DNA from: Streptomyces sp. NBC_01314 | Lineage (GTDB): Bacteria > Actinomycetota > Actinomycetes > Streptomycetales > Streptomycetaceae | Assembly (NCBI RefSeq): GCF_041435215.1 | Contig: NZ_CP108394.1 | Location: 1,860,001-1,924,000 of the forward strand | Length of the DNA stretch: 64,000 nt | Reading direction: 5' to 3' | In this document: positions 17,584 to 42,195 of the stretch, piece after piece | Layout of the letters: every line of letters starts with the position of its first letter | Position numbering within the stretch: the first letter of the stretch is position 1 | Notes under the pieces: generated by a model | Database searches by the model: none | The model's input: only the letters and a program-made list of their open reading frames with translations | What the model was told of the DNA's origin: nothing | Program-made: the position numbers and the translations under genes

Positions 17584-18003
17584 TCAGACGGTGACGGCCT
17601 GCGGGCTGCGCCGCTGGTCCGACCCCGGCACCGGCTCGGAGGCGTCCGAACCCAGGGCCACGATCCGGTTGTCGCCGTCCACGTGCACGACCCTGGGCTC
17701 CAGGGCGCGGGCCTCTGCGTCGGAGACCTGAGCGTAACTGATGATGATCACCAGGTCCCCGGGATGGACGAGGTGGGCCGCGGCACCGTTGATCCCGACG
17801 ACCCCCGAACCACGCTCGCCCTCGATGACGTACGTCTCCAGACGGGCGCCGTTGGTGACGTCGACGATGTGCACGAGCTCGCCCGGCAGCAGATCGGCGG
17901 CGTCGAGCAGTTCGGCGTCGATGGTCACGGACCCGACGTAGTGCAGGTCGGCCTGGGTGACGGTGGCGCGGTGGATCTTGGACTTGAATAGAGTACGCAG
18001 CAC
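17584..18003 (-). CDS. panD: Aspartate 1-decarboxylase
   Basis: 139 residues from GTG 18003 with AGGAG 8 bases upstream. Makes beta-alanine from aspartate for pantothenate/CoA. The pro-enzyme self-cleavage site Gly-Ser is present in HYVGSVTID (residues 24-25), giving a pyruvoyl Ser25; catalytic-region residues [20 protein letters not shown] and the [11 protein letters not shown] strand are intact. Its first ten codons and promoter are duplicated at 41,910 and 44,230, so the present 5' end may have been supplied by an integrated element (see the att-like repeats). Confidence 0.96.
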
Positions 18004-18250
18004 TTTGGACTCCTGGAAGACGGCTCCCTGCCAGCTTTGTGCAGGTCAAGGGCGGTCTTCACTCTACAGGGGCACGCGTCGAAGTCGACGATTGTGAGGA
18101 ACATCGCTTCTCCTGGGGAAACGACTCCCTGCCTTGGCTTCCGCGCCGACTAGGCTGTTGTGACGCCACCGACCAGGTGCCTGTTCGGACAGCCTTTCAG
18201 GATGTTCGGGAACTGATGCTGACCAGATGCTGACTTACCTGACGATGCGC
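17974..18250. repeat. att-like repeat copy 1: panD 5' end and promoter
   Basis: About 275 bp shared with 41910-42195 (estimated by eye above 90% identical) and 44230-44515 (clearly more diverged). It starts inside panD codon 10 (GATCTTGGACTTGA on the plus strand), runs through the start codon, RBS and promoter, and ends near CTGACGATGCGCCAG. It contains an arm-like TTTGTGCAGGTCAA (18036-18049) and two TGCTGAC words 11 bp apart (18217, 18228). Here it is joined to the intact panD body. Confidence 0.9.
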
Positions 18251-20014: not shown

Positions 20015-21187
20015 TACTCAGGTTGAACTCGTAGTGTCTGCCTGAGCGATCACCAAGGTTCGATGATCAGTCCGGTCCCGGCGAGGCAGCCGTCGATCAG
20101 GTGGGGTCTGAACTGGATCTTCTTCAGCTTGCGTTTGACGATGCGGACGAGGCCGCTGAGGTCGGGGGCGACGAAGTTGGCGATGGCGCGCTTGAGGAGC
20201 GACCACACGCCTTCGGCGGGGTTCAACTCCGGTGCGTAGGACGGCATCTGGAAGATCCGTAACCAGTCCGCGTGTTCCTCGGCGAAGGCAGCGAGATCCT
20301 TGGCAAGGTGGACGTTGAGGTTGTCCCAGCACCACACCAGGGGGGCGTTGAGCTGCTGGTGGGCGGTGATGATCAGGTCACGGTACTCGTGCCAGGCGAA
20401 CGTCTTCGGCTCACCCTTGCGGCCGTGGTAGACGTGCAACCGGTAGAAGAAGTGCGGGCGGCTGCCGGGCCGGTAGCAGACGGCGCCGGCGATGTTGACC
20501 CGGCCGTTCCCCCGGCCCCGCACCCGCACCACCGGGCGTGCTCCGCGCGGTGCCCAGGTACGGCCTTTCGGCGGCCTCAGCCCCTGGCCCGCCTCGTCCT
20601 CGAAACAGATGTAGGCGCCCAGGTCCGCCGCTGTCCTTTTAACTCCGGCCACACCTCGTCCTTCCACATCTCGATGGCTTCCTCGTCGCGCTCGATCGCG
20701 TGGCGCACCGGGACCTGGCAGGACCAGCCGTGCCGTTTCAGCAGTTTGGCCACCCCCTGGATCGTGTAGCCCTTGTGGAACAGCCTGCCAATCAGGGTCT
20801 TGATCCGGCCCAGCGTCCACCGCTGGTCATCGCTGAAGCCGTGGGCCAGAGGCCCCCGCTTCAGCTCCGCCTCCAGCCGGTCCCACTCCCGCACCGACAG
20901 CCGCTCCCGCGACACGGGCCCCTTCGACTTCAGCGCCGCGACCCCGCCCTCGCGCCACACCTTGCGCCACCGCCGCACCGTGCGCTCCGTGACCCGCAGG
21001 TCGGCCGCGATCACCGTGGCCTCATCACCGCGCCCGAACCGCTCGGCCGCCTCCAGCCTCAACAGTTCCCGCTTCTCCTGCTCGACGGGCGTATACCCGC
21101 CCCTCTGCGCATACCTCACGATCCCGTCGTACCGCAGGGATCACGAACCGTCACGACCCCACAGGCTCTACGAGTTCAACCTGAGTA
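20015..21187 (-). mobile_element. IS630-family element inserted at TA
   Basis: 1173 bp with perfect 20-bp terminal inverted repeats TACTCAGGTTGAACTCGTAG (20015-20034) and its complement (21168-21187). The outermost TA at each end matches the TA duplication typical of IS630/mariner elements. It lies immediately next to the IS701 right end and just before the Pycsar-effector-like remnant. Confidence 0.88.
20050..21119 (-). CDS. IS630-family transposase, two overlapping frames
   Basis: The upstream frame (21119 to 20577) encodes the helix-turn-helix part (RVTERTVRRWRKVWREGGVA; GFSDDQRWTLGRIKTLIG). The downstream frame (ending 20050) carries the DDE part: YICFEDEAGQGL, PLVWCWDNLNVH and SYAPELNPAEGVWSLLKRAI. 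The frames meet at GAGTTAAAAGGA, where a -1 slip on AAAAG joins ...VWPELK to ...RTAADLGAYICFEDE. Programmed frameshifting is usual in this family, so the transposase is probably functional as a fusion. Confidence 0.82.
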
Positions 21188-21773: not shown

Positions 21774-21988
21774 AAATCCCACCCTCTATGTGACTCCGCC
21801 GGGAGGCCTGGATCCGGTGCTGGGGACGATCAATGGGCGAGGCAAGCCGTGGACTCGCGGGACCGTTCGGAGATGCCACACACACTCCTCGCCGCTGTCA
21901 CCGCGGAACCTTCGACAATTCCGAATGTGTACACGGGTGAGTCGTGAGAGGTTGTCCCTGCGGCGTCTGGCCGCGAATGGGGGCGAGC
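21774..21988. other. Spacer before the interrupted module gene
   Basis: 215 bp without a gene; it probably contains the promoter of the interrupted ORF starting at 21989. A GGGGGCGAG Shine-Dalgarno-like run immediately precedes that ATG. Confidence 0.4.
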
Positions 21989-22166
21989 ATGCTGTTTGAC
22001 GAGCTGACGGCACTGGCGACAGAAGGCGGACGGGCAGTGGTCCGGGCCGTGGGTACCGCGGCCTGGCCCGTGACACAGCGTCGTGCCGCGGAGTTGGTCG
22101 GCCGCGGTGACGCCGAACGCGTGAGGGCGGAGCTCGTACGGCTCGATCGCACCGCGCAAGCCCTAA

Positions 22167-23833
22167 CCTCGCCGTTTCGGTTGGGGTGCGGCTGAGGGTT
22201 GGGTAGAAACGCAAAAGTGCCTTCCTGAGCTGGGACGATGGACCTTGTCTAGGGGTTCTGTCGTCGCCAGAGGAAGGCACTTTCTGCGTGAAGGATATCG
22301 GTTCGCGGCCCCGGCTTGTGGTGTCCACTGACGGGTCGGGGGTGGTCGGGCACGCCGGAGCACGTTTGCTGGCGGACCTCGCCGAAGCGACCGGGCTGAC
22401 GGCGGCGTATTCCACCGTGCTCCGGCCGCTTCGGCCGCGCGGCACCGGCCACGACCCGGGCCGGATCGCCACCGATCTCGCAGTGATGCTCGCCGACGGC
22501 GGCGAGGCGATCGCGGATCTGGCCGTTCTGCGGGACCAGCGCGAGGTGTTCGGCCCGGTGGCCTCCACGCCGACGGCTTGGCGGCTGCTGGCCGCCGTCG
22601 ACGAACGCATACTGGACCGCCTGCGGTCGGCCCGCGCCGCAGCCCGGGAAGTGGCCTGGCTACAGGCCGCCGAGACCCGCACCGCGATACCCGCAGTGAA
22701 GGCCGGCGGACGCGAACTGCCCGGCCTGGTCCTGGACCTCGACGCCACGCTGGTCACCTGCCACTCCGAGAAAGACCAGGCCGCACCCACTTACAAAGGC
22801 GGCTTCGGGTTCCACCCGTTGCTGTGTTTCCTGGCCAACACCGGCGAGGCGATGTCCGGGCTGCTGCGGCCTGGCAACGCCGGAGCCAACACCGCCGCCG
22901 ATCACATCACCGTGCTCGACCAGGCCCTCGCGCAGATCCCCGACGCCCATCGGCACGGCACCGACATCCTGGTCCGCACCGACAGCGCGGGCAGTGCGAA
23001 GGCGTTCCTCACGCATCTCCGCGCCTTGCGTGACAAAGGCCTTCACCTGCGTTTCTCGGTCGGATACGCGGTCACCGCACCGGTCCGCCGCGCAATCCGC
23101 GCCCTGCCCGAACAGGTCTGGCACCCCGCCCTGGACCAGGACGGAACACTGCGTGCCGGCGCCGAGGTCGCCGAGCTGACCGGCATGGTCGACCTGAACG
23201 GCTACCCGGCCGGAACCCGCATCATCGTGCGCCGCGAACGCCCGCACCCCGGCGCCCAACTGTCCCTGTTCGACCAGGACGAGGGCCTGCGGCACCAGGT
23301 CTTCCTCACCGACACCCCGTACTCCGGCGGCGGCTCGGCCCAGTTCCTGGAGGTCCGCCACCGTGGACACGCCACCGTCGAGGACCACATCCGGTGCGGC
23401 AAGACCACCGGCTTCGGACGCTTCCCATCCCGCCTGTTCTCCGTCAACGCCGCCTGGCTCGAGCTCAGCCTCGCGGCCATCGACCTTCTGGCCTGGACCC
23501 GCGTCCTGCTGCTGGACGGCGAACTGGCCACCGCCGAACCCAAGAAACTCCGCTACCGGATCCTGCACGTCGCTGCCCGTCTCACCCGCGGCGGCCGTCG
23601 CCTCCATCTGCGGATCGCAGCAACCTGGCCCTGGCGACACCAACTCGCCGCCGCCTTCCACCGTCTGGCCGCCCTACCCCGCCCCGCCAACTGACCAGCC
23701 ACCCCGGCCACCTACGACACGAAAGACCTTGGAGAACCCGACCACCGCGCCGGGTCCCCACCATGCCCACCGCCCGATACCGCCTCGATCAACCCCACAG
23801 CGCCACCTCGTCACCCCAAGCGAAACAGCGAGG
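22167..23833 (+). mobile_element. IS1380-family element, copy 1
   Basis: 1667 bp with imperfect terminal repeats (CCTCGCCGTTTCGGTTGGGG at left; CCTCGCTGTTTCGCTTGGGG at right when reversed), flanked by a 4-bp duplication CTAA (22163-22166 and 23834-23837). Same length and, where compared, same sequence as copy 2 at 35563-37229 in the opposite orientation. Confidence 0.95.
22288..23694 (+). CDS. IS1380-family transposase, copy 1
   Basis: 468 residues from GTG 22288 (MKDIGSRPRLVVSTDGSG). DDE-type transposase with LPGLVLDLDATLVTCHSEKD, DILVRTDSAGSAKAFL and the C-terminal CGKTTGFGRFPSRLFSVNAA block of the IS1380 family. Identical to the protein at 35702-37108. An inverted AGTGCCTTCCT word flanks its promoter region inside the element. 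Confidence 0.93.
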   Translation: MKDIGSRPRLVVSTDGSGVVGHAGARLLADLAEATGLTAAYSTVLRPLRPRGTGHDPGRIATDLAVMLADGGEAIADLAVLRDQREVFGPVASTPTAWRLLAAVDERILDRLRSARAAAREVAWLQAAETRTAIPAVKAGGRELPGLVLDLDATLVTCHSEKDQAAPTYKGGFGFHPLLCFLANTGEAMSGLLRPGNAGANTAADHITVLDQALAQIPDAHRHGTDILVRTDSAGSAKAFLTHLRALRDKGLHLRFSVGYAVTAPVRRAIRALPEQVWHPALDQDGTLRAGAEVAELTGMVDLNGYPAGTRIIVRRERPHPGAQLSLFDQDEGLRHQVFLTDTPYSGGGSAQFLEVRHRGHATVEDHIRCGKTTGFGRFPSRLFSVNAAWLELSLAAIDLLAWTRVLLLDGELATAEPKKLRYRILHVAARLTRGGRRLHLRIAATWPWRHQLAAAFHRLAALPRPAN

Positions 23834-24422
23834 CTAACGGTCCCGCCGTCAGGCGAAGCCAGCGCGGAGCGGGCGCGGCAGGAAGGGCTGTGGGCCGGAC
23901 GGTTCGAGGCTCTGCTGGACCGCCTCGAAGGGACCAAACAGTCCGGGACTGCAGCAGAGTTGCGCGCGCTCCTTGAGTCCCTCACTGCCTCCGTGGGCGA
24001 CACCGGCAACGCGACGGCCCGCGACGGCAGCAGCGCGATCACCGGAATTCGGAACGCCGGCGGTAGCCGTCCCGGCCCGTCGAAGGTCGCGCACACGGGA
24101 GACGCGGAGGCCGCCGGACCCGGCTCCAGCGCCGTCACCGGAATCGTCAACGAATAGGCCGGTCCCAGGACAGCCAGGTGCCTCGTGCAGAGCGTTGCAC
24201 GCACCGCAGACACCGACGATCGACATCTCACTCCAGAACTCATCACCGAGTCCCGTGAACTGGCAATCAGCAATTTTGAGAAACGTGCTGCCTCACGCAC
24301 TGCGTACCTCCGAAACGCGGCCTGCGTAGCAAGATTTATGGCCCACATAGGCGCATCGGTCGACCAAGCCTAGGGCGGCGCCGAAGCCGGTATCGCCGGA
24401 ATTTGTCCCGCTTCCGGCCCCT

Positions 24423-24640
24423 TCCTTGCGTACGAAGGACTCTACTTCTCGGCTATGGCGTACATCCGTCAAGCCTTGGGAGTGTTCGAGAAAGTCATGG
24501 GCGAGGATCATCGCTATACGTTGTCCTCGCGCGACACCCTTACCTACGCCTATCTGCCGGTGCGTGACCTGGCGCGGGAGTCCCGCTGTTGGAGCGGGCG
24601 CTGCGGGACAGCTAGCGGGTGCGGGACAAAGACCGTCCGG
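24423..24640 (+). pseudogene. Tetratricopeptide-repeat fragment
   Basis: No start in frame. Reads ...AYEGLYFSAMAYIRQALGV then FEKVMGEDHRYTLSSRDTLT, the TPR_10/12 pattern (G-D-H-x-x-T-L-x-x-R) found in NB-ARC-TPR and kinase-TPR proteins, followed by LLERALRDS and a stop. The rest of 24158-24721 has no supportable gene. Probably the relic of a STAND-TPR partner of the interrupted small gene at 21989. Confidence 0.5.
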
Positions 24641-24721
24641 TCGTAGTGAACGTCGGCATCAAACTCGCCGCGGTCGCCGATCGCAACGGACAGCGAGGTT
24701 AATCATGGCCGGGCGGTCACA

Positions 24722-27700
24722 TCACCTCCCGCTCACCGACACCACCGTCCCCTCCCGCCCACTGCAGCAGTGCTTGAACTTCCGCCCCCGCCGCATCATG
24801 CATGGACACGGCGCGTTCCTGCGTGGCCGCACCACCGCGAACGGCACGGTTGCACCCACAGCCTGCCCAAGGAGGATGGCGCGCTGGAGGTACGTGGGGT
24901 CGTCCGCCACCATGCCTGGAAGGTTTCGGCCGGCGATGACGATCAGGGAGCCATGGTGGGCCCGCTCGTACCAGTGAGGTAAGAAGTTGAGCGGCAGCCC
25001 TGGCAGGAGGTCGCCGTGAGGGTTGCTGAGAGTGATTTTGTGGTCGACCAGGCGGGCCTGAAGGTCCCGTTCCGGCACGGGCGGCAGATCGCGGAGGTCG
25101 AGGGGCTTGCCGCCGTTATTGGTGTACAGGGTGCGCAGGTTGGTGAGGCCCGACTCCAGGAAGAGCCGGAGGGTGACGTCCTCGATGCGGCGGCTGCCGT
25201 TGATCGCTCCCCAGCCGCCGTGGCAGTCGAGGACGATGCCGGCGCGGTCGCCGCCAAAGAGGATGCATTCGGCGTCGAAGCGATCCGGGGAGCGATCGGG
25301 GGCCGGGCCGGTGAGTTCGATCACGTCGGAGAGGTGGCAGTGGGAGTGCGCGAGCCGGAGCATCGGGTGTTGGACGTCCGGGTGGCGGAGGTAGAGGAGT
25401 TCGGCCTCGCCGGACTCGTCGATGATCAGATTGCACATAGTGCAGTACTGCCTGGAGGTGGCGAACCGAAGCGTGAGCGACTCGAGGTCGAATGCGGCCA
25501 GCGCCTGCTGCACGGAGTCGGAGATCCGCACGCTGCGCAGCCGGGACGGGGCAGCAGGCGGCACCACGGCGTCGTCGCGACCGTTCCGGAGGGCGCGGGC
25601 GCGGAGTGATTCGACGACGCGCATGTCGACCGGACCGCCGCCCACGAGCTCCTCGATGCTGGGCACGGTGCTGTCCGGGTCCGTGTCGTGGTGGAGTGCA
25701 CCCAGGAAGACCAGGGTCTCGCCCGCCTCCGGCCAGTTGCCGAGCGCCTGGTGGAGTGCGAAGGCCTGCCGGGCGCGGGAACGCGCGGCATCCGAGGCAT
25801 GGAGGGCCTTCTCGGCGCGGGCCAGGTTGAACAGGCAGGTGGCGCGCAGGGGGCCGTCGTCGAGACGTTCGCTGATCTGCAGGGCCGTGCGGAAGGACGC
25901 GGCCGCGGCGTGGTGGTCACCGGCCTTGGCGTGGCAGGTACCGAGGTTGGTGTGCAGGGACGTCAGCACGGAGTCCATGCCGAGCTTTTCAGCAAGCGGG
26001 ATGTTCTTGGTCATCAGGGCGAGGGCTTCGTCCCGGTTGCCGGTATGCAGCATGCAGGTCGTGGCCTGCGCGCGGGCGGTCAGGAGGACATGGAGATCTT
26101 TGTGCTCGGCAGCGGCTCGCGCGGTCTGTTCGTACTGGTCGGCGGCTTCGGCCCACCGCCCTGCTCGTGCATGGATGTTGCCCAGTGCCATCCGGCAGTG
26201 CAGGACACCGTCGACGTCGTTGTGCCGCTCGCAGTCGTCGAGTGCCCTGATGATCGCGGACAGGGCTTCGGTGTGCAGGCCGCGTCGCGAGTGGAGGACG
26301 GCCAGGGCGCGCGTCGCCCGGGCCCGGGTGCTGGGGGAGGCGGCGTCGCTGAAGTCGGAGACCACAGACCGCAGCATGCGGGCGCCGTCCTGCCACTGCC
26401 CCGAGACGACCAAAGCTTCGCCCAGGGCCGCCCGCACCTGGGCGAGTGCCCGACTCTCGTCAGTGGCGGCGAGAGACTGCTCTGCTTCGGTCAGCAGGCG
26501 GACGGCGTCTGTGATCCTCCCCCGGTGCCACAACAACTGGGCACGCTTCTGCAGGACATCTGCCTGAAGAACTGGGCTGCCGGACTCTTGGGCCATGTCC
26601 GACGCGACCTCAAACTGCGACTCCGCCGTGTCGTGGTGCCCGATGCCGCCGCTGTACGCGGCGAGATAGGTCAGGGCGCGCGCCGCATGCTGGTGGTCGC
26701 CGATTCCGATGGCGAGCTCGGCGCACTCCGCGAGGTACGTCGCGGCCCGGTCGAGGTCAGCATGGTGCGCGGCATCCTCACCGAGCCGGAACAACGCCCG
26801 GACCTGGCCCTGCACGTCACCCGTCTCCTGATGGATGGACAGGGCAGCCTCGAGCGGCTCGGCCGGAGCCGACTCCGGCCGAGCGCTGGCCGGGACCGCC
26901 GCGAGGTCCATCAGCGCCCGCGCCTCCCACTCCCGGCTGCCGATGGCCCGTGCCCGTTCGATGTCCCGGACGGACTCCTCCGCTGCCTCCGCCACTCGGC
27001 CCGTACTGCTCAGCAGTCTGGCGATCGACCGGGTGGCGAGCATCTCGCCGAAGCCGCTGCTCCGGCTCAGGTCACGGCTGTTGCGCAGGTAATTCTCGGC
27101 CCGGCGGGTCTGTCCGACCGCCATGTACGCCTGGCCCAGGTTCCCTAAGGCGAGCGCGAGTGCCTGATGATGCCCGACGGTCCGCCAGTAGTGCAGTCCG
27201 CTTCGCAGGTACGCTATGGCATCGCGGGGCCGGCCCAGGTTGATCAGTAGCGTCCCCAGGCCGAGCTGCGCCATGAACAGATGCTCGGCATCGTTGGCCG
27301 CGCGCGCCGTTTCGGCGCAACGGTAGTACAGATCCACCGCATCCTGGCTCTCGCCGAGGTGCCCGGCAACCACAGCCCGGTTGTACAGCGCGGTGGCCGT
27401 CCAGTTGGCGTGTCCGGCCAGCTCCCCGGCCTCCTGTACGCACTGGTAGACGCGGTCCAGCTCCTTCCAGTGGCTAGCAACCCGCAGATGCTCGGTGAGG
27501 GCGAAGGCGAGAAGCAGTAGTTGGTCCCAGGCCTCGTACTGCCGGGCCGTTTCAACGAGGGCGACCGCGCCGGGACGGTCCGCGTCCAGCGACCGCAGCG
27601 CTTCGGCACTGCTCTCGGCAGGGACGGTCGCCTCCTCGTCCAGGAAACCGATCGCATCGGTAGCCGACCGCACGCGGACGGCTGTGACGAGACAGGCGTG

Positions 27701-28978
27701 ACGAACGACATTCGCCCGTTGCGTCCCCGACCACGGCGCGGACGTCAGCCGAGCGAAGCGGTGCTGAATTTCGTGCATCACGAATCGGTCGTCGTCGAGC
27801 TGCTCGATGAGGCTGAGCTCGACCAGCGAGTCGAGGAGCGCGGCCGTGTCCGCGAGGTTGTCGTCGTCGACCTCACCCAGCGGCGGCTGCGCGATGCCCG
27901 CTGCGACGACATCGACGGTGAACGACATGTGCGGCAGGACGCCGAGCGCGGAGAAGACCTGTGCCTGATCGCGTTCGAGCGCGTCGAAGCTCTGCTGGAA
28001 CACAGGCTGCAGCGCGGTCTGGCCGGCGACGAGGGCCTTGACGCTGCGGTCGGGATTGGTGATCTCGGAAAGGTAGCGGTCGGCGTTCACGCGGGGCCGG
28101 CGGGCCAGATGCGCCGCGGCGATGTGCAGGGCGAGCGGGTGACCGGCGCACGCCGCGGACAGCGCGGCCGTCTGCTCGCCGGTCAGCCGGCCGGGACCGG
28201 CGACCGCCTGTACGAGCTCCTCGCTGGGCGCGGCCGGCAGTGGACCGAGGTCGATGAGGCGGACCATGCCGCTGAGCCCGCTGAGCTTGACGCGGCTGGT
28301 GCCCACCAGCGCGAACGGGCCGTCGACGGCGAGGATCTCAAGGAGCGCCTCCTCCGAGACGATATCGTCGACGAGCAGCAGGACGCGCTTGTCGGCGAGC
28401 GCCGTCCGTAGCAGCGCCAGCTGCTGGTCACGGCGGTCCGGCAGGGGAGGCTCGGGTGGAAAGAGCGCGTGGAGTATCGACGACACAAGGTCCGTGGGGC
28501 CGGTCGACAGCGCGAGATTGATGTGGAACTGGCCGTCCGGGTAGTGCTCCGCAGCTAGCCGGCACATGCGCAGGGCGACGTCGCTCTTCCCGATGCCAGG
28601 GGCCCCAGTCACCACAACCGCCGCCCGGCCGCCGCCGTCCGCGTGCCGCAGCACGTCGAGACCGGCGGAGATCTCCGCCTCGCGCCCGAACAGTCGCGGG
28701 CGCCGTTCGCCGGGCAGGACGGAGTCCTGCACCGAGCGGGACTGTAGGGACGGCAGCGTCACCCGGACGTCGCCCGACACGTACCCAGTGATTGCCACCC
28801 CACCGTGCGAGGCATACGCCGTCCCCGTCGCTCTGACCGAGACGAAGCCGGGCCCGTCAGCCGCCGTCGCCGCGCTGACACCGGTGATCGCGGTGCCGCC
28901 GTCCGTCGCCCGGGCGTCGCCGCTGTCCCGCACCTCGGCGCCCGGCCGTGCGTCGCCGGACCCGTTCTCGTCCTCCAT
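24722..28978 (-). CDS. STAND/NB-ARC-TPR ATPase with C-terminal SEC-C zinc motif (module 1)
   Basis: 1418 residues from ATG 28978 (GGGGAG 8 bases upstream). The N-terminus carries two copies of the shared motif: SGDARATDGGTAITGV (19-34) and TGTAYASHGGVAITGYV (51-67). The NB-ARC domain has P-loop GAPGIGKS (125-132), Walker B LLLVDD (200-205), GTSR (226-229), GHPLALH and an MHD-like VMHEIQHRF. TPR repeats fill about 430-1090. The C-terminal region has a CTMC...HSHC pair and ends in a SEC-C-like APCPC...FKHCC. Such proteins are switch-like ATPases that sense a ligand via the repeats and signal through the N-terminus. It follows the two-TM gene by 16 bp. Confidence 0.85.
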   Translation of the reverse strand: MEDENGSGDARPGAEVRDSGDARATDGGTAITGVSAATAADGPGFVSVRATGTAYASHGGVAITGYVSGDVRVTLPSLQSRSVQDSVLPGERRPRLFGREAEISAGLDVLRHADGGGRAAVVVTGAPGIGKSDVALRMCRLAAEHYPDGQFHINLALSTGPTDLVSSILHALFPPEPPLPDRRDQQLALLRTALADKRVLLLVDDIVSEEALLEILAVDGPFALVGTSRVKLSGLSGMVRLIDLGPLPAAPSEELVQAVAGPGRLTGEQTAALSAACAGHPLALHIAAAHLARRPRVNADRYLSEITNPDRSVKALVAGQTALQPVFQQSFDALERDQAQVFSALGVLPHMSFTVDVVAAGIAQPPLGEVDDDNLADTAALLDSLVELSLIEQLDDDRFVMHEIQHRFARLTSAPWSGTQRANVVRHACLVTAVRVRSATDAIGFLDEEATVPAESSAEALRSLDADRPGAVALVETARQYEAWDQLLLLAFALTEHLRVASHWKELDRVYQCVQEAGELAGHANWTATALYNRAVVAGHLGESQDAVDLYYRCAETARAANDAEHLFMAQLGLGTLLINLGRPRDAIAYLRSGLHYWRTVGHHQALALALGNLGQAYMAVGQTRRAENYLRNSRDLSRSSGFGEMLATRSIARLLSSTGRVAEAAEESVRDIERARAIGSREWEARALMDLAAVPASARPESAPAEPLEAALSIHQETGDVQGQVRALFRLGEDAAHHADLDRAATYLAECAELAIGIGDHQHAARALTYLAAYSGGIGHHDTAESQFEVASDMAQESGSPVLQADVLQKRAQLLWHRGRITDAVRLLTEAEQSLAATDESRALAQVRAALGEALVVSGQWQDGARMLRSVVSDFSDAASPSTRARATRALAVLHSRRGLHTEALSAIIRALDDCERHNDVDGVLHCRMALGNIHARAGRWAEAADQYEQTARAAAEHKDLHVLLTARAQATTCMLHTGNRDEALALMTKNIPLAEKLGMDSVLTSLHTNLGTCHAKAGDHHAAAASFRTALQISERLDDGPLRATCLFNLARAEKALHASDAARSRARQAFALHQALGNWPEAGETLVFLGALHHDTDPDSTVPSIEELVGGGPVDMRVVESLRARALRNGRDDAVVPPAAPSRLRSVRISDSVQQALAAFDLESLTLRFATSRQYCTMCNLIIDESGEAELLYLRHPDVQHPMLRLAHSHCHLSDVIELTGPAPDRSPDRFDAECILFGGDRAGIVLDCHGGWGAINGSRRIEDVTLRLFLESGLTNLRTLYTNNGGKPLDLRDLPPVPERDLQARLVDHKITLSNPHGDLLPGLPLNFLPHWYERAHHGSLIVIAGRNLPGMVADDPTYLQRAILLGQAVGATVPFAVVRPRRNAPCPCMMRRGRKFKHCCSGREGTVVSVSGR

Positions 28979-28994
28979 TAACCCGCTCCCCGAG

Positions 28995-29339
28995 CTAGCT
29001 GTAGTCGATCCCGGTACTGGCACTGCTGCCGGACCCGTCAGCCGTCGCGTCACCTGTTCGCTCCACCCGCGCCGATCCCGTGCCCGCCCCACCGGGCCTG
29101 CGGATCCCGGTGTGCGCCGACCCACCACCGGACGCCTGCGCCTGGCCAGTATCCGTGGCCGAGTCCCCCTGCCTGGGCTGCAACCACGCCCACACCAGCG
29201 CTGCGACCCCGGTGCCGACCTGCAACGACGCCCCGACCAGCTCCCCGGCCCCTGACCCGTTCAGCAACCACACCATCGGCGTCGCCGCGATGCAGGCCAC
29301 CCCGACCACGATCAGCACGATCTTCCACGGCCGTGTCAC
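28995..29339 (-). CDS. Small two-TM protein with motif tail (module 1 partner)
   Basis: 114 residues from GTG 29339. Two hydrophobic segments (about 6-26 and 34-53), then a Gly/Ala/Ser/Thr-rich tail with two copies of the shared motif: DTGQAQASGGGSAHTGI (63-79) and RTGDATADGSGSSASTGI (94-111). It lies immediately upstream of the STAND ATPase whose N-terminus carries the same motif, so a homotypic interaction is inferred. It may be the membrane-acting effector or membrane anchor of the module. Architecture matches the protein at 34944-35291. Confidence 0.75.
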   Translation of the reverse strand: MTRPWKIVLIVVGVACIAATPMVWLLNGSGAGELVGASLQVGTGVAALVWAWLQPRQGDSATDTGQAQASGGGSAHTGIRRPGGAGTGSARVERTGDATADGSGSSASTGIDYS

Positions 29340-29448
29340 GCCGTCCCGCCTTCCCCCTGGCCAGCCTTTCCGCAGGTATAGCAAGGACGCTCATGCCGTT
29401 GCCACTGGTTCCGGCGGTCCCGGTTGTCCATGGTCTTACCTCGAACGA

Positions 29449-30925
29449 GGGTCTATCAGGAATTAGGTGTGATTCGTCTGTTTGGCCTACGAGTTGGTGG
29501 GTGGGCTGTTCGGCCTACACTCGTCCGGCGGTAAGGCGGCCGTCGAAGAGGACGTCGAACTCGTTGAGGGCGGACTTCCAGCGGTTGTTCCAGCGCTGGC
29601 GGCCGCGGCCGGTGGGGTCGAGGGCGAGGGTGGCGAGGTAGAGGCGTTTGAGGGCGGCCTGCTCGTTGGGGAAGTGCCCGCAGGCCTGGGCCGCGCGCCG
29701 GTAGCGGGCGTTGAGGGACTCGATGGCGTTGGTGGTGTAGACGACCTGGCGGATGGCGTCGGGCAGGCCGAGGAAGGGTACGAACTCGCTCCAGGCCCGC
29801 TGCCAGGTGCCGGCGATCGAGGGGTAGCGCTTGCCCCACGTGGCGTCGAAGTCCGCGAGCCGTTGCCGGGCCTCTTCCTCGTTGACGGCGGTGTAGACGG
29901 GCTTGAGGTCGCGGGCGACCTCGGCCCAGTCGCGGCGCGATGCGTAGCGCAGGCTGGCGCGGATGAGGTGGACCACGCAGGTCTGCACGACGGTCTGGGG
30001 CCAGACGGTGTTCACCGCGTCGGGCAGGGCGCTCAGCCCGTCGCAGACCAGCATGAGCACGTCGCGGACGCCTCTGTTCTTGATCTCGGTCAGGATGGTC
30101 TGCCAGTACTTGGCGCCCTCGCCGCCGTTGCCGGCCCACAGTCCGAGGATCTCGCGGTAGCCGTCCGCGGTGACCGCGACGGCCACGTAGACCGGCCGGT
30201 TGGCGACGTGACCGTCCCTGATCTTGACGTGCACGGCGTCGATGAAGACGACAGGGTAGACCGGATCGAGCGGGCGGGTGCGCCATTCCGCCATCGATTC
30301 CAGGGCCTTGTCGGTGATCGTGGAGATGGTCTCCTTCGTGGTCGTCATCCCGTACGTCTGGGCGAGGTGGGAGACGATCTCGCCGGAGGTCAGGCCCTTC
30401 GCGGTCAGTGAGAGCACCAGGTCGTCCAGCGCGCCGGTGCGGCGGGCGTGCACGGGCAGCAGCCGGGGCCGGAAGGTGCCCAGCCTGTCTCTGGGGACCT
30501 GCACCGTCACGGCGCCGACCTCCGTCATGACCTTCTTGGCCCGGTAGCCGTTGCGCATGTTGCCGCCCGAGCGGGACCCGCGCCCGCCGACCCGGCCGGC
30601 CTCGGCGGCGAGGTGCTCGTCCATCTCGGCCTCCAGGGCGGCCTGCATCAGATGCTGGGCCAGTTCGGGCAGCAGCCCGCCCTCGCCCATCAGCCGCAGC
30701 CCTTCGCCGCCATGGACCTTCTCGGCCGCGAGCGCGGCCAGCTCCTCCAGCAATTCGCTGGACAGACCGTTCTCAGACACCGGCATCGACTTCACGTCGG
30801 CACCCTGGACACTGCCGTCGGCCACGGCAAGCGACACGCGGTCTACGGCCTCAATCAGGTGACCTGTCGTCGCATTCATCAGATGACTCCTTCGGGAAGG
30901 ATCACACCTAATTCATGACACTCCC
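29449..30925 (-). mobile_element. IS256-family element
   Basis: 1477 bp. Imperfect inverted repeats of about 25 bp with a perfect inner GAATTAGGTGTGAT, and an 8-bp target duplication TCGAACGA at 29441-29448 and 30926-30933, as expected for IS256. Confidence 0.93.
29515..30879 (-). CDS. IS256-family transposase
   Basis: 454 residues, intact mutator-type transposase: VVFIDAVHVKIRDGHVANRP (first D), VLMLVCDGLSALPDAVNTVW (second D) and the C-terminal IESLNARYRRAAQACGHFPN block with the catalytic Glu. Normal length for the family, so probably active. Confidence 0.95.
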   Translation of the reverse strand: MNATTGHLIEAVDRVSLAVADGSVQGADVKSMPVSENGLSSELLEELAALAAEKVHGGEGLRLMGEGGLLPELAQHLMQAALEAEMDEHLAAEAGRVGGRGSRSGGNMRNGYRAKKVMTEVGAVTVQVPRDRLGTFRPRLLPVHARRTGALDDLVLSLTAKGLTSGEIVSHLAQTYGMTTTKETISTITDKALESMAEWRTRPLDPVYPVVFIDAVHVKIRDGHVANRPVYVAVAVTADGYREILGLWAGNGGEGAKYWQTILTEIKNRGVRDVLMLVCDGLSALPDAVNTVWPQTVVQTCVVHLIRASLRYASRRDWAEVARDLKPVYTAVNEEEARQRLADFDATWGKRYPSIAGTWQRAWSEFVPFLGLPDAIRQVVYTTNAIESLNARYRRAAQACGHFPNEQAALKRLYLATLALDPTGRGRQRWNNRWKSALNEFDVLFDGRLTAGRV

Positions 30926-31416
30926 TCGAACGATCCGGGCGACGGTGAACAGGGCGTCGGATCGCTCACCCGTGGCTCACTGTGAAGCATGCCTACGTGA
31001 GTGCAGTCCGGATGCGCCAGGATGCCTAAATCCTGAATGTTGCTTCGGGGAGGACGTCGGTTCGGGCAGCGGCAACACTGACGGCCAGCAGAAGCGGGCG
31101 GACCTTGGTGTACCCGGTGAAGGAGGTGTTCGCGCGTCACCCGAAGGCATGGTGGTGGCTGGCGCTCGTCGTTGAGGGCTTCCCTGTAGGCGAGCCAAGA
31201 GTGGTTGGCGACGGCGAAATGTATGTAGTTACTTCACCGGCTTGCTGCTCCTGGCGGTTGGCGGTTGGCGGTTGGCGGTTGGCGGTTGCGGTCGCCGGCC
31301 GTGCTGCCGACGGTCCGCCACCTGCCGTCGTCAGGGATGTTGCCCAGCTCCGCCGAGGGCGAGCTGTCCCTCCCCTCCTAGCGTGAAGACCGTAACTGCA
31401 GGGGAAGTTGGGAGTT
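30926..31416. other. Spacer without a recognisable gene
   Basis: Between IS256 and the IS3 remnant. A short plus-strand frame from about 31105 (LVYPVKEVFARHPKAWWWLA) might be a protein fragment, but it runs into the GGCGGTT array and has no homology I recognise. Confidence 0.4.
31253..31287. repeat. Five tandem GGCGGTT heptamers
   Basis: Five perfect head-to-tail copies of GGCGGTT. Simple-sequence array of the kind prone to slipped-strand change; no known role. Confidence 0.9.
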
Positions 31417-32344
31417 ATGGCGGAGAAGCGACGGAAGTTCGATCCGGAGTTCCGTGAGGGGGCTGTACGGATCGTGACGGGGACCGGCAAGCCGATCGCC
31501 GAGGTCGCGAAGGACCTTGGCATCAACGAGACCACTCTGGCCAGCTGGGTCTCCCGGGCCCGCCGGGCCGGTACCACGCCGGCCGGTGAGAGCGATGAGC
31601 TGGAGCGGCTGCGGTGGGAGAACGCCCAGCTCAACGGGGCAACAAGGAACTGGTCATGGAGCGTGATGTGCTCAAACGCTGCATGGTCCTGTGGGTGAAG
31701 TAGCTGGGGCGGACCCGTCCCAAGTGGTCGGGGTGATCAGCGACTTCAGGACCGTGCACAACATCCCGCATCGCGTCTCGTGCCGTGCGCTGGGCGTGAG
31801 CGAGTCGTGGTTCTACAAGCACCGCACCCGCAAGCCCACCGGGCGGCAGACGCGTCACCTGCGGCTGGTCCAGGCGGTCCAGGCGGTCCAGGAGGAGTTC
31901 ACCGACTCCGGTGGCACCTACGGCTCACCGAAGATCTGGATCATGCTGGTCCGCAAGGGCTGGCGCGTCTCGGTGAACACCATCGCGAAGATCACGGCCG
32001 AGCTCGGCCTGGCGGGCCGCACAGTTCACAGACGCCGCGGGCTGACCCGCCCCGGCAAGCGGCCGGCGAGTCCGGACTTCGTGCGCCGCGACTTCACCGC
32101 GGAGGCTCCCGACCTGGTCTGGTGCGGGAACATAACGGAGATCGAAACCGGCGAGGGGAAGCTGTATCTGGCCACGGTCATCGACCTGTTCTCCCGCCGC
32201 CTGCTCGGCTACGCGATGGGAGCCCGACATGACGCCGATCTGGTCGTCGCCGCCCTGCACATGGCCGTCGCGACCCAAGGCGCAGTATTCGGCCAGCCAG
32301 CCGATCGCGCGATCGAGGAATGCGGCGACAATACGGGAGGTTGA
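31417..32344 (+). pseudogene. IS3-family transposase remnant (orfA and orfB)
   Basis: orfA starts at ATG 31417 (MAEKRRKFDPEFREGAVRIV) but is frameshifted at about 31635, after which the expected NKELVMERDVLKRCMVLWVK lies in another frame. orfB (about 31691 on) has VVGVISDFRTVHNIPHRVSC and the start of the rve domain, but the first catalytic Asp is replaced in LVWCGNITEI (D to N), and the frame stops at 32344 before the second catalytic block. No right end is visible. Dead element. Confidence 0.85.
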
Positions 32345-32504
32345 GCGTAGGCGCCGTCCGCCGACCACAGGGTCCGCCCGCTGGTCATCCACACCTTGAT
32401 CGGCAAGTGGTTTGGGGTAGGGGCGGGCCTTCTGAGGATGAATACCCCAGGGTGTGTTCCAGCTATCCAAACTCCCTACCGTCGGACGACAGCTGGGTGG
32501 CCTG

Positions 32505-34904
32505 TCATCCTGCGGTTCCGGCGTCTGCGGACCAGTAGGCCAGAATCTGGCGTATGTCTGTGGTGACATGGTGATACAGGCCGAGAAGTCGTGTCGCGTG
32601 GTCGGCCACGTTCTCCATCTGGGCGCGGGCGCTCTCCTTCTTGCCTGCTCGCCAGGTCCACTCGGCGAGTACAGAGCGGCAGGTGAGCGTGCGTACCTGG
32701 TCGGGGCCGAACACAGTGATGAACAGTGGTACGAGCTCGGTGAGTTCTGTGACGGCCTCGTCGAGGTGGCCCGCTTTGCCGCGTTGTTGGGCTAGGTTTG
32801 CGCGGGTGATCAGGGACTCGCTGTGGAGCTCTCCGTGCACCGCAAGCTGGTCGGCCAGCAAAGGCGTAAGGATTTCGATCGCTTCTTCGTTGTGCCCCAG
32901 TCGGCCCAAGCAGCTGGCCAGAGCGTTGCGGGCGACCATGGTGCGAGGATGACGCGGGCCGCTGATTCGCATAGTGCCCTCGACGACAGTGCGCAGTTCC
33001 GGCAGGGCTTCGGCTTCCCGTCCGCATTGGGTCATGTAGTGAGCGCGGTTGCGCCGAGTGACGAGAACGTCCTCGTCTGACGGAGTAGGCAGTCGCTGCA
33101 GCGTGTCGAGGAGACGGTCGTACTCAGCGACTGCCCCCTCATAATCCCATGCAACGCCGCGCCAGTGCGCCAGATTGTTCAGAGTGGTCAGCACATGCTC
33201 GTGCTCGTCGCCCAGAAGGCCGCGTTGAGCGGCCAGCACAGCTTGGAGCTCCTCCACCGCCGCTGACACCTCGCCGTCCTCGGCCTGCAACCCTGCGATG
33301 TCGCTGCGTAGGAACAGGGTCTCCGGAGCATTTTCGCCCAGTAGCCGTCGCGCGGTGCGCAGCATCGATCTGTAGTGCAGCAGTCCCTGATCCCTGCGCC
33401 CGGTGGCCTGCAACTGTAAGCCAAGCCGCGTAAGTACGCGGTGAGGCCCCTGTGCATCCCACAACGCATCCGCCGTGTCATGCGCGACAAGGTGCTCCGC
33501 GCTGGACACCAGGGAGCGGCCGGTGGCGGTGTCCGTGTAGTCCACGCCCGGCGGCCACGTCTCCTCAAGGGCGTCGGCTGCCGCTCGGACCGCGGTGTTC
33601 AATTCCGAGGGCTGGACGCTTTCTCGTACAGCGCGCTGGATGAGCTGGTGCATGCTGACGAAATCGTCCCGCTCGTCCGTTCCTCGGGGCGCCGGGTTCA
33701 CGAGACTGAGTCGGCGTAATACCTGTAACGCCCGTCGAGCGTGATGGGCTGAGGCTGGCAGTTGTCGACCGCTCGGCTGCTGCGTATTGAGGTACTGGAC
33801 CAGGGCGGGCGTAGTGATCGTCGCCATGGGAACCGAGTGGGTGTCCAGCAGGCACAGCATCGTGAGCAGCGGACGCGCGAGGCCCGCGGGAGCGAGCTCG
33901 TTCGCTCGTTGTACCGACAGGTGCCACGCAGCGGCCACGGTGTGCTGCTGCGCGTCCGGGAGGCTACTGTCGTCAGGCAGAATGTCGGCCAGCTGCAGGG
34001 TGCGGTCCGCGAGCAGAGCTCGGTACTGCGCAACGGTCAAAGAGCGATCCTCGCAGAGGTAGGCGGCTGCCTGCGCAAGCGCAAGGGGCAGATGGCCGAG
34101 ATCGTCAGCGAGGCGGTCAAGATCGGCGACGTCCTGCTCACGTCCCTGCAACTTAAGGACTCTTTGCAGGTAACGCCTTGACGTGGCCGGGGAGTACAAG
34201 CCGACGTCCACGCGAGCACGGTGCTCGGTGTGCCAGGCGGCGTCCTTGCTGCGGGTGGTCACCACGCACCGTCCGCTGGCCGTGCGCGGCGGCCACCAGT
34301 CCCGCAATGCCCCCACATCCGGCACATCGTCCAGAACCACTAGCCAGGTTCGGGGCGTTGTGGCAAGCCACGAGAGGAAGAGGGCAGCTTCGTCATCCAC
34401 GTCGCCCGAAGCACTCAGACCGGTGACGGCACGCCAGGCACGGGCGTAGGTGCCCACGATGTGCTCAATGCGATCGGCGGTCACCCAGACGACCAGATCC
34501 ATCCGCGCCGGTGGCGAAGTAACAGGGGCGGACCGCTGTGTGTCAGTGTTGACGGAGGCTGAGTCGACGTGCCGAGAGCGAGTCTTCGCGAGCATGTCCG
34601 CGGCGAACTCGGCCGCCACCTGCGTCTTGCCCACACCCCCCATGCCGCACAGGACCATTGTCGAGGGGGTCGCGTCGGCGGAGTCGATCCACTCGCGCAG
34701 ACTCGACGAGGCCTCACGAGGCTCGAACCGGGAGGCGGGCACCGGGACAGAGCCCACGAGCAGCGGCCACTGCGGTCGGAAGGCTTCCTTGACTACGATC
34801 GTGACGTTTTCGACGTAGCCGCTGTTCGCCCAGCCATTGGGTTCGGCATGAGCGCTGCCGGTGTCCGAGACCTTGAGCATGTTCCTGTCCCTGCGCATGG
34901 ACAT
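32505..34904 (-). CDS. STAND/NB-ARC-TPR ATPase (module 2)
   Basis: 799 residues from 34904; Met-9 (MLKVSDTGSAHA) is an alternative start. One copy of the shared motif lies at the N-terminus: DTGSAHAEPNGWANSGYV (14-31). NB-ARC: P-loop GMGGVGKT (87-94), Walker B WLVVLDD (187-193), VVTTRS, GHLPLALAQAAAYL and an MHD-like SMHQLIQ. The second half is TPR (RSMLRTARRLLGENAPETLF; GDEHEHVLTTLNNLAHWRG; GPRHPRTMVARNALASCLGR). Sensor-switch ATPase by family; ligand unknown. It begins 39 bp after the small two-TM gene, forming a second copy of the module at 24722-29339. Confidence 0.87.
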   Translation of the reverse strand: MSMRRDRNMLKVSDTGSAHAEPNGWANSGYVENVTIVVKEAFRPQWPLLVGSVPVPASRFEPREASSSLREWIDSADATPSTMVLCGMGGVGKTQVAAEFAADMLAKTRSRHVDSASVNTDTQRSAPVTSPPARMDLVVWVTADRIEHIVGTYARAWRAVTGLSASGDVDDEAALFLSWLATTPRTWLVVLDDVPDVGALRDWWPPRTASGRCVVTTRSKDAAWHTEHRARVDVGLYSPATSRRYLQRVLKLQGREQDVADLDRLADDLGHLPLALAQAAAYLCEDRSLTVAQYRALLADRTLQLADILPDDSSLPDAQQHTVAAAWHLSVQRANELAPAGLARPLLTMLCLLDTHSVPMATITTPALVQYLNTQQPSGRQLPASAHHARRALQVLRRLSLVNPAPRGTDERDDFVSMHQLIQRAVRESVQPSELNTAVRAAADALEETWPPGVDYTDTATGRSLVSSAEHLVAHDTADALWDAQGPHRVLTRLGLQLQATGRRDQGLLHYRSMLRTARRLLGENAPETLFLRSDIAGLQAEDGEVSAAVEELQAVLAAQRGLLGDEHEHVLTTLNNLAHWRGVAWDYEGAVAEYDRLLDTLQRLPTPSDEDVLVTRRNRAHYMTQCGREAEALPELRTVVEGTMRISGPRHPRTMVARNALASCLGRLGHNEEAIEILTPLLADQLAVHGELHSESLITRANLAQQRGKAGHLDEAVTELTELVPLFITVFGPDQVRTLTCRSVLAEWTWRAGKKESARAQMENVADHATRLLGLYHHVTTDIRQILAYWSADAGTAG

Positions 34905-34943
34905 CCGTTCAGGTGCTGCTATAGACAGCTGGTCGGGTGTGGG

Positions 34944-35291
34944 TCAACTCAGGCGGATGCCTGTGTTGACGTTGCCGCCGTCGCCGTAGGCGTCCCCGGT
35001 GCGCTCCACCCGGAACTCGCCATGCAGGCTGTCCGCCGGGCCCGTGATGCCGCTGTTGACATCCGCCCCCGATCGGGCTGACGCCGTGCCCGTTTGCAGT
35101 GCGACGGCGTCAGCTGGCTGCCCGTCACGCTGCGAAAGTTCCCGAGCCAGAGCGATCACCGCCGCGCACGCGGCGATGATGGAGGCCACTTGCCCCGCCG
35201 CATTCAGATCCACGGTGAACCACACCACCACCATCGCAGCGATGACAAGCACCGAACCGGCGATCACCGCGTACCGCTTCCAGTTGTTCAT
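34944..35291 (-). CDS. Small two-TM protein with motif tail (module 2 partner)
   Basis: 115 residues from ATG 35291 (MNNWKRYAVIAGSVLVIAAM). Two hydrophobic segments (about 7-27 and 32-48), then a tail with two shared-motif copies: QTGTASARSGADVNSGI (66-82) and RTGDAYGDGGNVNTGI (97-112). Length, topology and position before a STAND-TPR gene match the protein at 28995-29339, although the TM sequences are quite different; only the tail motif is conserved. Confidence 0.75.
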   Translation of the reverse strand: MNNWKRYAVIAGSVLVIAAMVVVWFTVDLNAAGQVASIIAACAAVIALARELSQRDGQPADAVALQTGTASARSGADVNSGITGPADSLHGEFRVERTGDAYGDGGNVNTGIRLS

Positions 35292-35562
35292 ACCGGGATA
35301 CTGCCTCAACAACGGGACGGTCGGGCCCAAGCGTTGGCCTCACTTGGAATCGACTGGCCCTGTGAGCTGCGGGGCAGAGCCCCGGCGGGGAAGCGTGTGG
35401 AGAGCAAAGTACAGCGATGGACCGCGCGCTCGAACGGCTCGGGCAGTTGGAAGTCGGTGCCCGGCCTTCCCTTGCCAGTCCCGAAGCTGAGGGGACCCGC
35501 ATACTGAAGAGGGCTGTGCCGGCACAGCCCGAGATCCGGCGCCAGTCGAAAGGAGCAGTTAG
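35292..35562. other. Spacer before IS1380 copy 2
   Basis: 271 bp that should hold the leftward promoter of module 2. A plus-strand frame from 35416 (MDRALERLGQLEVGARPSLA) runs into the IS; I do not recognise it as a gene. Confidence 0.4.
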
Positions 35563-37229
35563 CCTCGCTGTTTCGCTTGGGGTGACGAGGTGGCGCTGTG
35601 GGGTTGATCGAGGCGGTATCGGGCGGTGGGCATGGTGGGGACCCGGCGCGGTGGTCGGGTTCTCCAAGGTCTTTCGTGTCGTAGGTGGCCGGGGTGGCTG
35701 GTCAGTTGGCGGGGCGGGGTAGGGCGGCCAGACGGTGGAAGGCGGCGGCGAGTTGGTGTCGCCAGGGCCAGGTTGCTGCGATCCGCAGATGGAGGCGACG
35801 GCCGCCGCGGGTGAGACGGGCAGCGACGTGCAGGATCCGGTAGCGGAGTTTCTTGGGTTCGGCGGTGGCCAGTTCGCCGTCCAGCAGCAGGACGCGGGTC
35901 CAGGCCAGAAGGTCGATGGCCGCGAGGCTGAGCTCGAGCCAGGCGGCGTTGACGGAGAACAGGCGGGATGGGAAGCGTCCGAAGCCGGTGGTCTTGCCGC
36001 ACCGGATGTGGTCCTCGACGGTGGCGTGTCCACGGTGGCGGACCTCCAGGAACTGGGCCGAGCCGCCGCCGGAGTACGGGGTGTCGGTGAGGAAGACCTG
36101 GTGCCGCAGGCCCTCGTCCTGGTCGAACAGGGACAGTTGGGCGCCGGGGTGCGGGCGTTCGCGGCGCACGATGATGCGGGTTCCGGCCGGGTAGCCGTTC
36201 AGGTCGACCATGCCGGTCAGCTCGGCGACCTCGGCGCCGGCACGCAGTGTTCCGTCCTGGTCCAGGGCGGGGTGCCAGACCTGTTCGGGCAGGGCGCGGA
36301 TTGCGCGGCGGACCGGTGCGGTGACCGCGTATCCGACCGAGAAACGCAGGTGAAGGCCTTTGTCACGCAAGGCGCGGAGATGCGTGAGGAACGCCTTCGC
36401 ACTGCCCGCGCTGTCGGTGCGGACCAGGATGTCGGTGCCGTGCCGATGGGCGTCGGGGATCTGCGCGAGGGCCTGGTCGAGCACGGTGATGTGATCGGCG
36501 GCGGTGTTGGCTCCGGCGTTGCCAGGCCGCAGCAGCCCGGACATCGCCTCGCCGGTGTTGGCCAGGAAACACAGCAACGGGTGGAACCCGAAGCCGCCTT
36601 TGTAAGTGGGTGCGGCCTGGTCTTTCTCGGAGTGGCAGGTGACCAGCGTGGCGTCGAGGTCCAGGACCAGGCCGGGCAGTTCGCGTCCGCCGGCCTTCAC
36701 TGCGGGTATCGCGGTGCGGGTCTCGGCGGCCTGTAGCCAGGCCACTTCCCGGGCTGCGGCGCGGGCCGACCGCAGGCGGTCCAGTATGCGTTCGTCGACG
36801 GCGGCCAGCAGCCGCCAAGCCGTCGGCGTGGAGGCCACCGGGCCGAACACCTCGCGCTGGTCCCGCAGAACGGCCAGATCCGCGATCGCCTCGCCGCCGT
36901 CGGCGAGCATCACTGCGAGATCGGTGGCGATCCGGCCCGGGTCGTGGCCGGTGCCGCGCGGCCGAAGCGGCCGGAGCACGGTGGAATACGCCGCCGTCAG
37001 CCCGGTCGCTTCGGCGAGGTCCGCCAGCAAACGTGCTCCGGCGTGCCCGACCACCCCCGACCCGTCAGTGGACACCACAAGCCGGGGCCGCGAACCGATA
37101 TCCTTCACGCAGAAAGTGCCTTCCTCTGGCGACGACAGAACCCCTAGACAAGGTCCATCGTCCCAGCTCAGGAAGGCACTTTTGCGTTTCTACCCAACCC
37201 TCAGCCGCACCCCAACCGAAACGGCGAGG
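35563..37229 (-). mobile_element. IS1380-family element, copy 2
   Basis: 1667 bp, reverse-oriented twin of 22167-23833, flanked by the 4-bp duplication TTAG (35559-35562 and 37230-37233). The two copies bracket about 11.7 kb containing module 1 and module 2. Confidence 0.95.
35702..37108 (-). CDS. IS1380-family transposase, copy 2
   Basis: 468 residues, identical to the copy at 22288-23694. Intact DDE transposase. Sequence identity with the first copy means recent spread or gene conversion. Confidence 0.93.
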   Translation of the reverse strand: MKDIGSRPRLVVSTDGSGVVGHAGARLLADLAEATGLTAAYSTVLRPLRPRGTGHDPGRIATDLAVMLADGGEAIADLAVLRDQREVFGPVASTPTAWRLLAAVDERILDRLRSARAAAREVAWLQAAETRTAIPAVKAGGRELPGLVLDLDATLVTCHSEKDQAAPTYKGGFGFHPLLCFLANTGEAMSGLLRPGNAGANTAADHITVLDQALAQIPDAHRHGTDILVRTDSAGSAKAFLTHLRALRDKGLHLRFSVGYAVTAPVRRAIRALPEQVWHPALDQDGTLRAGAEVAELTGMVDLNGYPAGTRIIVRRERPHPGAQLSLFDQDEGLRHQVFLTDTPYSGGGSAQFLEVRHRGHATVEDHIRCGKTTGFGRFPSRLFSVNAAWLELSLAAIDLLAWTRVLLLDGELATAEPKKLRYRILHVAARLTRGGRRLHLRIAATWPWRHQLAAAFHRLAALPRPAN

Positions 37230-37364
37230 TTAGCGCAAGAACGCAGAGATGCCGCAGCGACTACCTACCGGTAGGTGCAGGACGTCTGGATACGCGCAGA
37301 GCGCGGGCCTTCTTCTCTCACCCGCGCCCGGCCTCAGCATGCTGTGCTGGCGGTGTCACCGGAC

Positions 37365-41909: not shown

Positions 41910-42195
41910 GATCTTGGACTTGAATAGAGTACGCAGCATTTTGGGCTCCTGGAAGACGGCTCCCTGCCAGCTTTGTGCAGGTCAAGGGCGGTATTCACTC
42001 TACAGGGGCACGCGTCGAAGTCGACGATTGTGAGGAACATCGCTTCTCATTGGGATAGGGCTCCCTGCCTGGGCTTCCGCGCCAACCAGGCTGTTGTGAC
42101 GCCACCGACCAGGTGCCTGTTGGGACAGCCTTTTCAGGATGTTCGGGAACTGATGCTGACCAGATGCTGACTTACCTGACGCCACATCAGGTGCA
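41910..42195. repeat. att-like repeat copy 2: displaced panD 5' end
   Basis: Near-identical to 17974-18250. On the minus strand it keeps an RBS (CAGGAGCCCAAA), an ATG start (GTG in the intact gene) and codons [10 protein letters not shown], then a TAG stop. Arms: TTTGTGCAGGTCAA at 41972-41985 and paired TGCTGAC words near 42153 and 42164. It is the left end of a second, about 2.3-kb unit. Confidence 0.9.

Follow-up and report, generated by a model that had tools for sequence, protein, structure and literature searches.

The 64,000-nucleotide stretch of Streptomyces sp. NBC_01314 analysed here (NZ_CP108394.1, positions 1,860,001 to 1,924,000; the window, in whose own numbering all coordinates are given) carries five neighbouring genes, A to E, that share a short motif. 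The motif has the form TG-x-A-x-A-(x)-G-x-A-x-(T/S)-G-(I/V/Y), the TG motif, and is located at the C-terminus of three small putative effectors and at the N-terminus of two STAND ATPases. It is probably a homotypic adaptor, of the amyloid type (a beta-arch or two-rung solenoid signalling motif), that couples a STAND sensor to its effector. The genes are best read as encoding a BASS-type NLR/effector signalosome of bacteria, in which the motif is a two-repeat, HET-s-like one and the effector is in most cases a membrane hairpin. This reading draws on what was observed of the motif, namely its presence and position, its pairing across genomes, its swapping between proteins, and its predicted topology. 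A preliminary description of the same DNA had proposed an adaptor that joins a sensor ATPase to a membrane effector, and at the level of sequence this proposal is supported by the pairing, by the tail being found on three different domains, and by the predicted strand pairs.

Nine copies of the motif were found in the window by a regular expression applied to six frames, all of them in genes A to E, and the nine strings quoted in the preliminary description are each present in the translations where they had been placed. The repeat unit is about 17 residues long and rich in Gly, Ala, and Thr, and the tandem copies in the tails of A, C, and E are about 31 residues apart. Receptor B (24722..28978, minus strand, likely ATG at 28978) is a predicted STAND ATPase of 1418 residues with a tandem motif at its N-terminus (28775..28927, minus; SGDARATDGGTAITGV and TGTAYASHGGVAITGY). 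Effector C (28995..29339, minus), a protein of 114 residues for which relatives suggest a GTG start at 29339, lies 16 bp upstream on the same strand and features a two-helix membrane hairpin followed by a C-terminal tandem motif tail (28998..29153, minus). Receptor D (32505..34904, minus), a predicted STAND ATPase with NB-ARC and TPR regions, bears a single N-terminal copy (34815..34865, minus; DTGSAHAEPNGWANSGY). Effector E (34944..35291, minus), located 39 bp upstream of D, is a two-helix membrane hairpin of 115 residues with its own tandem motif tail (34947..35096, minus). Gene A lies on the plus strand, tail to tail with B, and is broken in this strain by an insertion sequence. Its first part (21977..22162) encodes a helical domain, called type A, with a start that relatives would place at 21977 or 21989, and its second part (23839..24157) ends in the tandem motif tail (23999..24154). 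In a related locus, L089, C is followed by B, and A comes next on the opposite strand as a single open frame. Because of the gaps, the strands, and the order in L089, the window is read as two modules, C-B with A alongside and E-D, in place of the three that had been described. In the first of them, a single receptor, B, would serve two effectors, C and A.

The rarity of the motif in its own genome was determined with 39 other stretches of 20 kb, of which 19 surround other NB-ARC hits and 20 are spaced controls. The regular expression gave two matches in these stretches, both in short open reading frames (ORFs) of 51 and 65 codons, and a profile of the single unit gave one match at 11 bits or more per ~1.31 million six-frame ORF residues. 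Since 19 of the stretches surround other NB-ARC hits, NB-ARC genes of this genome do not generally carry the motif. A tandem profile searched against the whole genome (E <= 10, with the best 150 of 831 first-look candidates scored) gave four strong matches (9.7e-24 to 2.0e-19), all within the window, and the next had an E-value of 0.17. The copies in the window have no Q/N-rich core, and Pfam gave no match for the tails, with E-values up to 10 considered for L089 and for the fragments of A, and up to 0.1 for C and E.

With 17 candidates scored per genome, the tandem tail profile has a match (E <= 0.01) in at least 86 of 392 genomes from the genus. Loci were fetched for places at E <= 0.001 and a few weaker ones, 78 in all, leaving out three places that duplicate another near the opposite chromosome end. 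Genomes G150, G198, and G253 have equal-scoring motif matches close to the two ends of a single contig, a placement that would suit terminal inverted repeats. After three artefacts were dropped, 72 of the 78 loci contained 73 tail ORFs, which have two scored motif copies in 60 cases, one in 12, and in one case are recognized by the tandem profile only; the tail ends four or fewer residues from the stop codon in 69 of 73. An ORF with a P-loop lies directly downstream on the same strand of 55 of the 73 tail ORFs, and in 39 of these partners the unit scores at least 11 bits. Several of the other 16, which have no scored copy, show a weaker one by eye. Among the other 18 cases, three next ORFs have the unit without a P-loop, nine have neither, and six tail ORFs are not followed by an ORF of 300 codons. 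Where a downstream ORF has both, the motif is N-terminal to the P-loop in 40 of 40 (window included).

Pfam families assigned at E <= 0.01 to 68 downstream ORFs, including the two of the window, are NB-ARC in 44, TPR_12 in 45, and NACHT in nine. The preliminary description had named, as an outcome that would count against it, a motif occurring mostly in unrelated proteins with no pairing to NB-ARC genes, and these frequencies of P-loop and NB-ARC partners are the opposite. Some partners are of other kinds. The motif lies close to the N-terminus of the partner at L135:6674-7993, whose match to VMAP-C (E 9.8e-37) forms a link with the vWA-MoxR ternary systems. The partners of TG-motif hairpins at L124:7377-8459, L149:4206-5378, and L163:7096-8256 lack a P-loop and combine a motif-like stretch at the N-terminus with a hydrophobic helix and a long C-terminal part; Pfam gave no family above its cut-off for any of them. 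Motif distances among receptors correlate with those among effectors (Mantel r 0.39, reached in 0 of 2000 permutations, n = 34), with a partial r of 0.23 given NB-ARC (n = 34), and the last motif residue tends to differ between receptor copies (Tyr) and effector copies (Ile/Val). Relatives of E (eight besides E itself, E <= 1) and of the N-terminus of D (four) are found partly on apparently matching contigs, which fits a pair that is kept together.

A second set of loci was chosen irrespective of the partner, by scanning named genomes with two hairpin patterns and confirming hits by similarity to a whole small protein. It comprises 25 loci, all from Streptomyces, in which the next ORF has a P-loop in 20 and the unit in 17 (counted from the individual entries). 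Several genomes overlap the first set, so the second set is a check on the mode of choice and not on new organisms. The survey that the preliminary description had suggested, of whether the motif accompanies such gene pairs, thus gave a pairing that recurs across Streptomyces, also in the set chosen blind to the partner. Across the class, a match at E <= 0.001 was found in 15 of 394 genomes, seven of them outside the genus. Five of the seven (L199, L201, L204, L205, and L207) encode a hairpin protein with the tail, and in three of the five a long motif-bearing ORF overlaps or adjoins it; in L211 the match falls within an unrelated repeat protein, and in L210 the pattern did not find the motif. 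A relative of E is also encoded in three plasmid records, and in the two examined the next gene starts with the motif, followed by TPR in one and HEAT repeats in the other.

The tail is found on different N-terminal domains, which were classed in 76 proteins (the three of the window included) as hairpin-like in 64, type A in nine, and type B in three, where a protein counts as hairpin-like if it belongs to neither A nor B and is strongly hydrophobic over a stretch preceding the tail. For type A, a domain of five helices is predicted. A type-A profile, tail included, has matches in 21 of 41 genomes, and many of these matches end ahead of the tail in ORFs that bear other C-termini. Four such tails (L169, L170, L174, and L175) read like RHIM, although Pfam makes no RHIM call for those scanned (L169, L170, and L174), and by eye the ORF adjoining each of these proteins opens with a similar stretch. 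The neighbour is a P-loop ORF in L170 and L175, and in L169 and L174 it is a protein with a single hydrophobic helix. The C-terminal part of the latter two appears lectin-like by eye, and each is a possible transmembrane receptor that uses the RHIM-like motif. One effector domain thus fits more than one receptor motif, as would be expected of an adaptor slot.

The AlphaFold2 model of C (pLDDT 78.6, with block means up to 93) consists of two helices followed by two strand-turn-strand units. Foldseek found only four matches to this model in the PDB at E <= 10, none of them significant, and these are HET-s (twice), HELLF, and FapC, which are functional amyloids of fungal and bacterial origin. Structure prediction, which had been suggested as a check on the adaptor proposal, accordingly showed paired strands in the C tail and returned only amyloid structures as matches, none of them significant. 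Lysine and arginine together number 120, 21, and 86 on the N-terminal side, in the loop, and on the C-terminal side of 59 proteins with two hydrophobic stretches, a distribution from which the tail should be cytoplasmic. C and E have no Pfam family at E <= 0.1, and hence no SLATT match.

Both receptors of the window are classed by family profile as STAND (NB-ARC) ATPases, with NB-ARC scores of 25.4 bits for B and 27.3 bits for D against a Pfam cut-off of 23.5, and TPR_12 is found in both. The two N-terminal motif copies of B are followed by NB-ARC, TPR repeats, and a C-terminal Cys motif; the latter (24722-24830) is rich in Cys and resembles SEC-C (TIGR04102, E 0.026, under the cut-off). The ATPase and TPR part of B also scores 177.9 against AfsR-type regulators, for which the curated cut-off is 1430, and D scores 271.7 bits against the TPR protein of the FxSxx-COOH system (NF040586), under the cut-off of 300. 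The preliminary description had regarded the paired proteins as dissimilar outside the motif, which holds in part: C and E are both two-helix hairpins and can be weakly aligned, and B and D share NB-ARC and TPR.

In the proposed mechanism, a cytosolic STAND/NB-ARC sensor with TPR repeats would bind a trigger, presumably a phage or other invasion signal, and would then oligomerise. Oligomerisation is established for the STAND family. It would cluster the N-terminal motif copies of the sensor, and, as the pairing and swapping suggest, the clustered copies would template the cytoplasmic tails of the small effectors whose genes lie immediately upstream. Such an effector is in most systems a predicted two-helix membrane hairpin, and its clustering would perturb the membrane and lead to cell death or arrest. 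B may drive two unlike effectors, the hairpin C and the now broken helical bundle A, and D would drive E. We infer the contact between the tail and the ATPase N-terminus as well as the amyloid assembly, and templating, trigger, and membrane damage are proposed by analogy with fungal HET-s and BASS systems, as described in the accessible parts of PMC7889193, PMC8086366, PMC9815663, and PMC12261475.

The tails are like those of HET-s and HELLF (HRAM) in having two pseudo-repeats and a linker at the effector C-terminus, and the C model weakly and non-significantly matches both fibre structures. In contrast to HET-s/HRAM, the ~17-residue repeats are rich in Gly, Ala, and Thr and have no sequence relation to them by Pfam; the HeLo domain was not found in the effectors here. 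The core of the RHIM/PP/BASS3 motif is (V/I)Q(V/I/L)G. On inspection this core is absent from all nine window copies, which sets the TG motif apart from that group, with which it shares the type-A domain that, as read here, also bears RHIM-like tails with matching downstream ORFs. Bacterial NB-ARC/NACHT STAND immune ATPases, among them bNACHT and Avs, likewise feature a STAND core and a repeat region, however, the effector here is separate and would be joined through a short motif instead of being a fused enzyme domain. The closest gene layout is that of BASS NLR/BELL pairs, in which adjacent genes of filamentous actinobacteria encode a receptor that bears the motif N-terminally and an effector that bears it C-terminally (accessible parts of PMC7889193 and PMC8086366). 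Unlike those pairs, the effectors here are mostly hairpins and not a helical bundle, which in a BELL domain includes a hydrophobic helix, and some partners are not NLRs. If any of BASS1-10 is equivalent to the TG motif, BASS4 is the likeliest, which is described as occurring comparatively often in repeated form at the BELL end of the pair (PMC8086366, accessible part). A three-gene cluster is mentioned for a fungus in the accessible part of PMC7889193. A literature text search with six motif strings returned nothing on this subject, and the accessible parts of two papers on bacterial conflict systems make no mention of the motif.

Other explanations of the shared motif were weighed against an amyloid-type adaptor. 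The biased composition of the motif and a G+C content of 65-73% in 2 kb steps of the window would suit a low-complexity coincidence of Gly/Ala/Thr-rich, GC-rich coding, but the background rate given above stands against nine copies in five neighbouring genes, and the pairing is conserved across genomes; this explanation has virtually no probability and was rejected on the regular expression and profile backgrounds, the own-genome search, and the cross-genome pairing. A homotypic adaptor of a non-amyloid kind, in which receptor and effector are stacked into a discrete complex by a finite beta-roll or beta-helix built from the copies, is unlikely, though the likeliest of these alternatives. The single chain is predicted to be strand-turn-strand, and the copies have a regular Gly/Ala-rich pattern with no Q/N-rich core, a pattern that presumably somewhat resembles the beta-roll repeats of bacterial adhesin heads. 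Against a finite structure, the only PDB matches are amyloid structures, weak as they are, the gene layout mirrors known amyloid signalosomes, and the type-A domain exchanges its TG-motif tail for RHIM-like tails.

The same exchange bears on a different role for the tail, in which the ATPase N-terminus binds it at rest and sensing frees the effector. Such an inhibitory tail would show the same adjacency and effector-first gene order, and the tendency of receptor and effector copies to differ in their last residue also fits it; RHIM-like tails, however, activate by templating in known systems (PMC7889193, accessible part), and an inhibitory role is rather improbable. There is similarly little likelihood that the pairs are non-immune, with a membrane-anchored regulator acting on an ATPase of development or secondary metabolism. 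This idea draws on the resemblance of B to AfsR-type regulators, far under the cut-off, and of D to the FxSxx-COOH TPR protein, and it is opposed by the patchy distribution in the genus, the occurrence on plasmids, and the several receptor types (NB-ARC, NACHT, and VMAP-C).

New features appear to be the use of a hairpin as effector, the HET-s-like tandem form of the tail, and partners other than NLRs, and the motif itself may equal a published BASS family. It is possible, and suggested here tentatively, that the systems form a distinct unpublished class of bacterial amyloid signalosome, in which a HET-s-like two-repeat Gly/Ala/Thr beta-solenoid couples sensors of the NB-ARC, NACHT, and VMAP-C kinds, as well as single-pass membrane proteins whose C-terminal part is large, to a minimal membrane hairpin of two helices, and in which receptor and effector versions are told apart by the last residue (Tyr versus Ile/Val). 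If the amyloid-type reading is true, bacteria use the two-repeat templating logic of fungal HET-s as well, in a different sequence, and natural receptor/effector pairs are available by the dozen (55 with a P-loop partner), together with domain swaps. It would then be testable whether bacterial NLR-like ATPases signal through amyloid templating and what sets the specificity of a pair, and the window effectors, at 114-115 residues, would be very simple executioners for study.

The interruption of gene A, already noted in the preliminary description, is one of two identical, inverted, transposase-bearing elements of 1,676 bp. The copy within gene A (22163..23838, plus strand, ends from the self-match) contains a transposase ORF at 22288-23694, and the inverted second copy is located at 35558-37233. 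The two copies flank the region, the second lying ~270 bp upstream of E, in a composite-transposon-like arrangement. Outside this pair is a 272 bp inverted repeat of 95% identity (17974-18244 and 41910-42181), and more transposase-like ORFs were noted by eye between and around the modules at 18575, 20050-21119, 29515, and 31408-32344.
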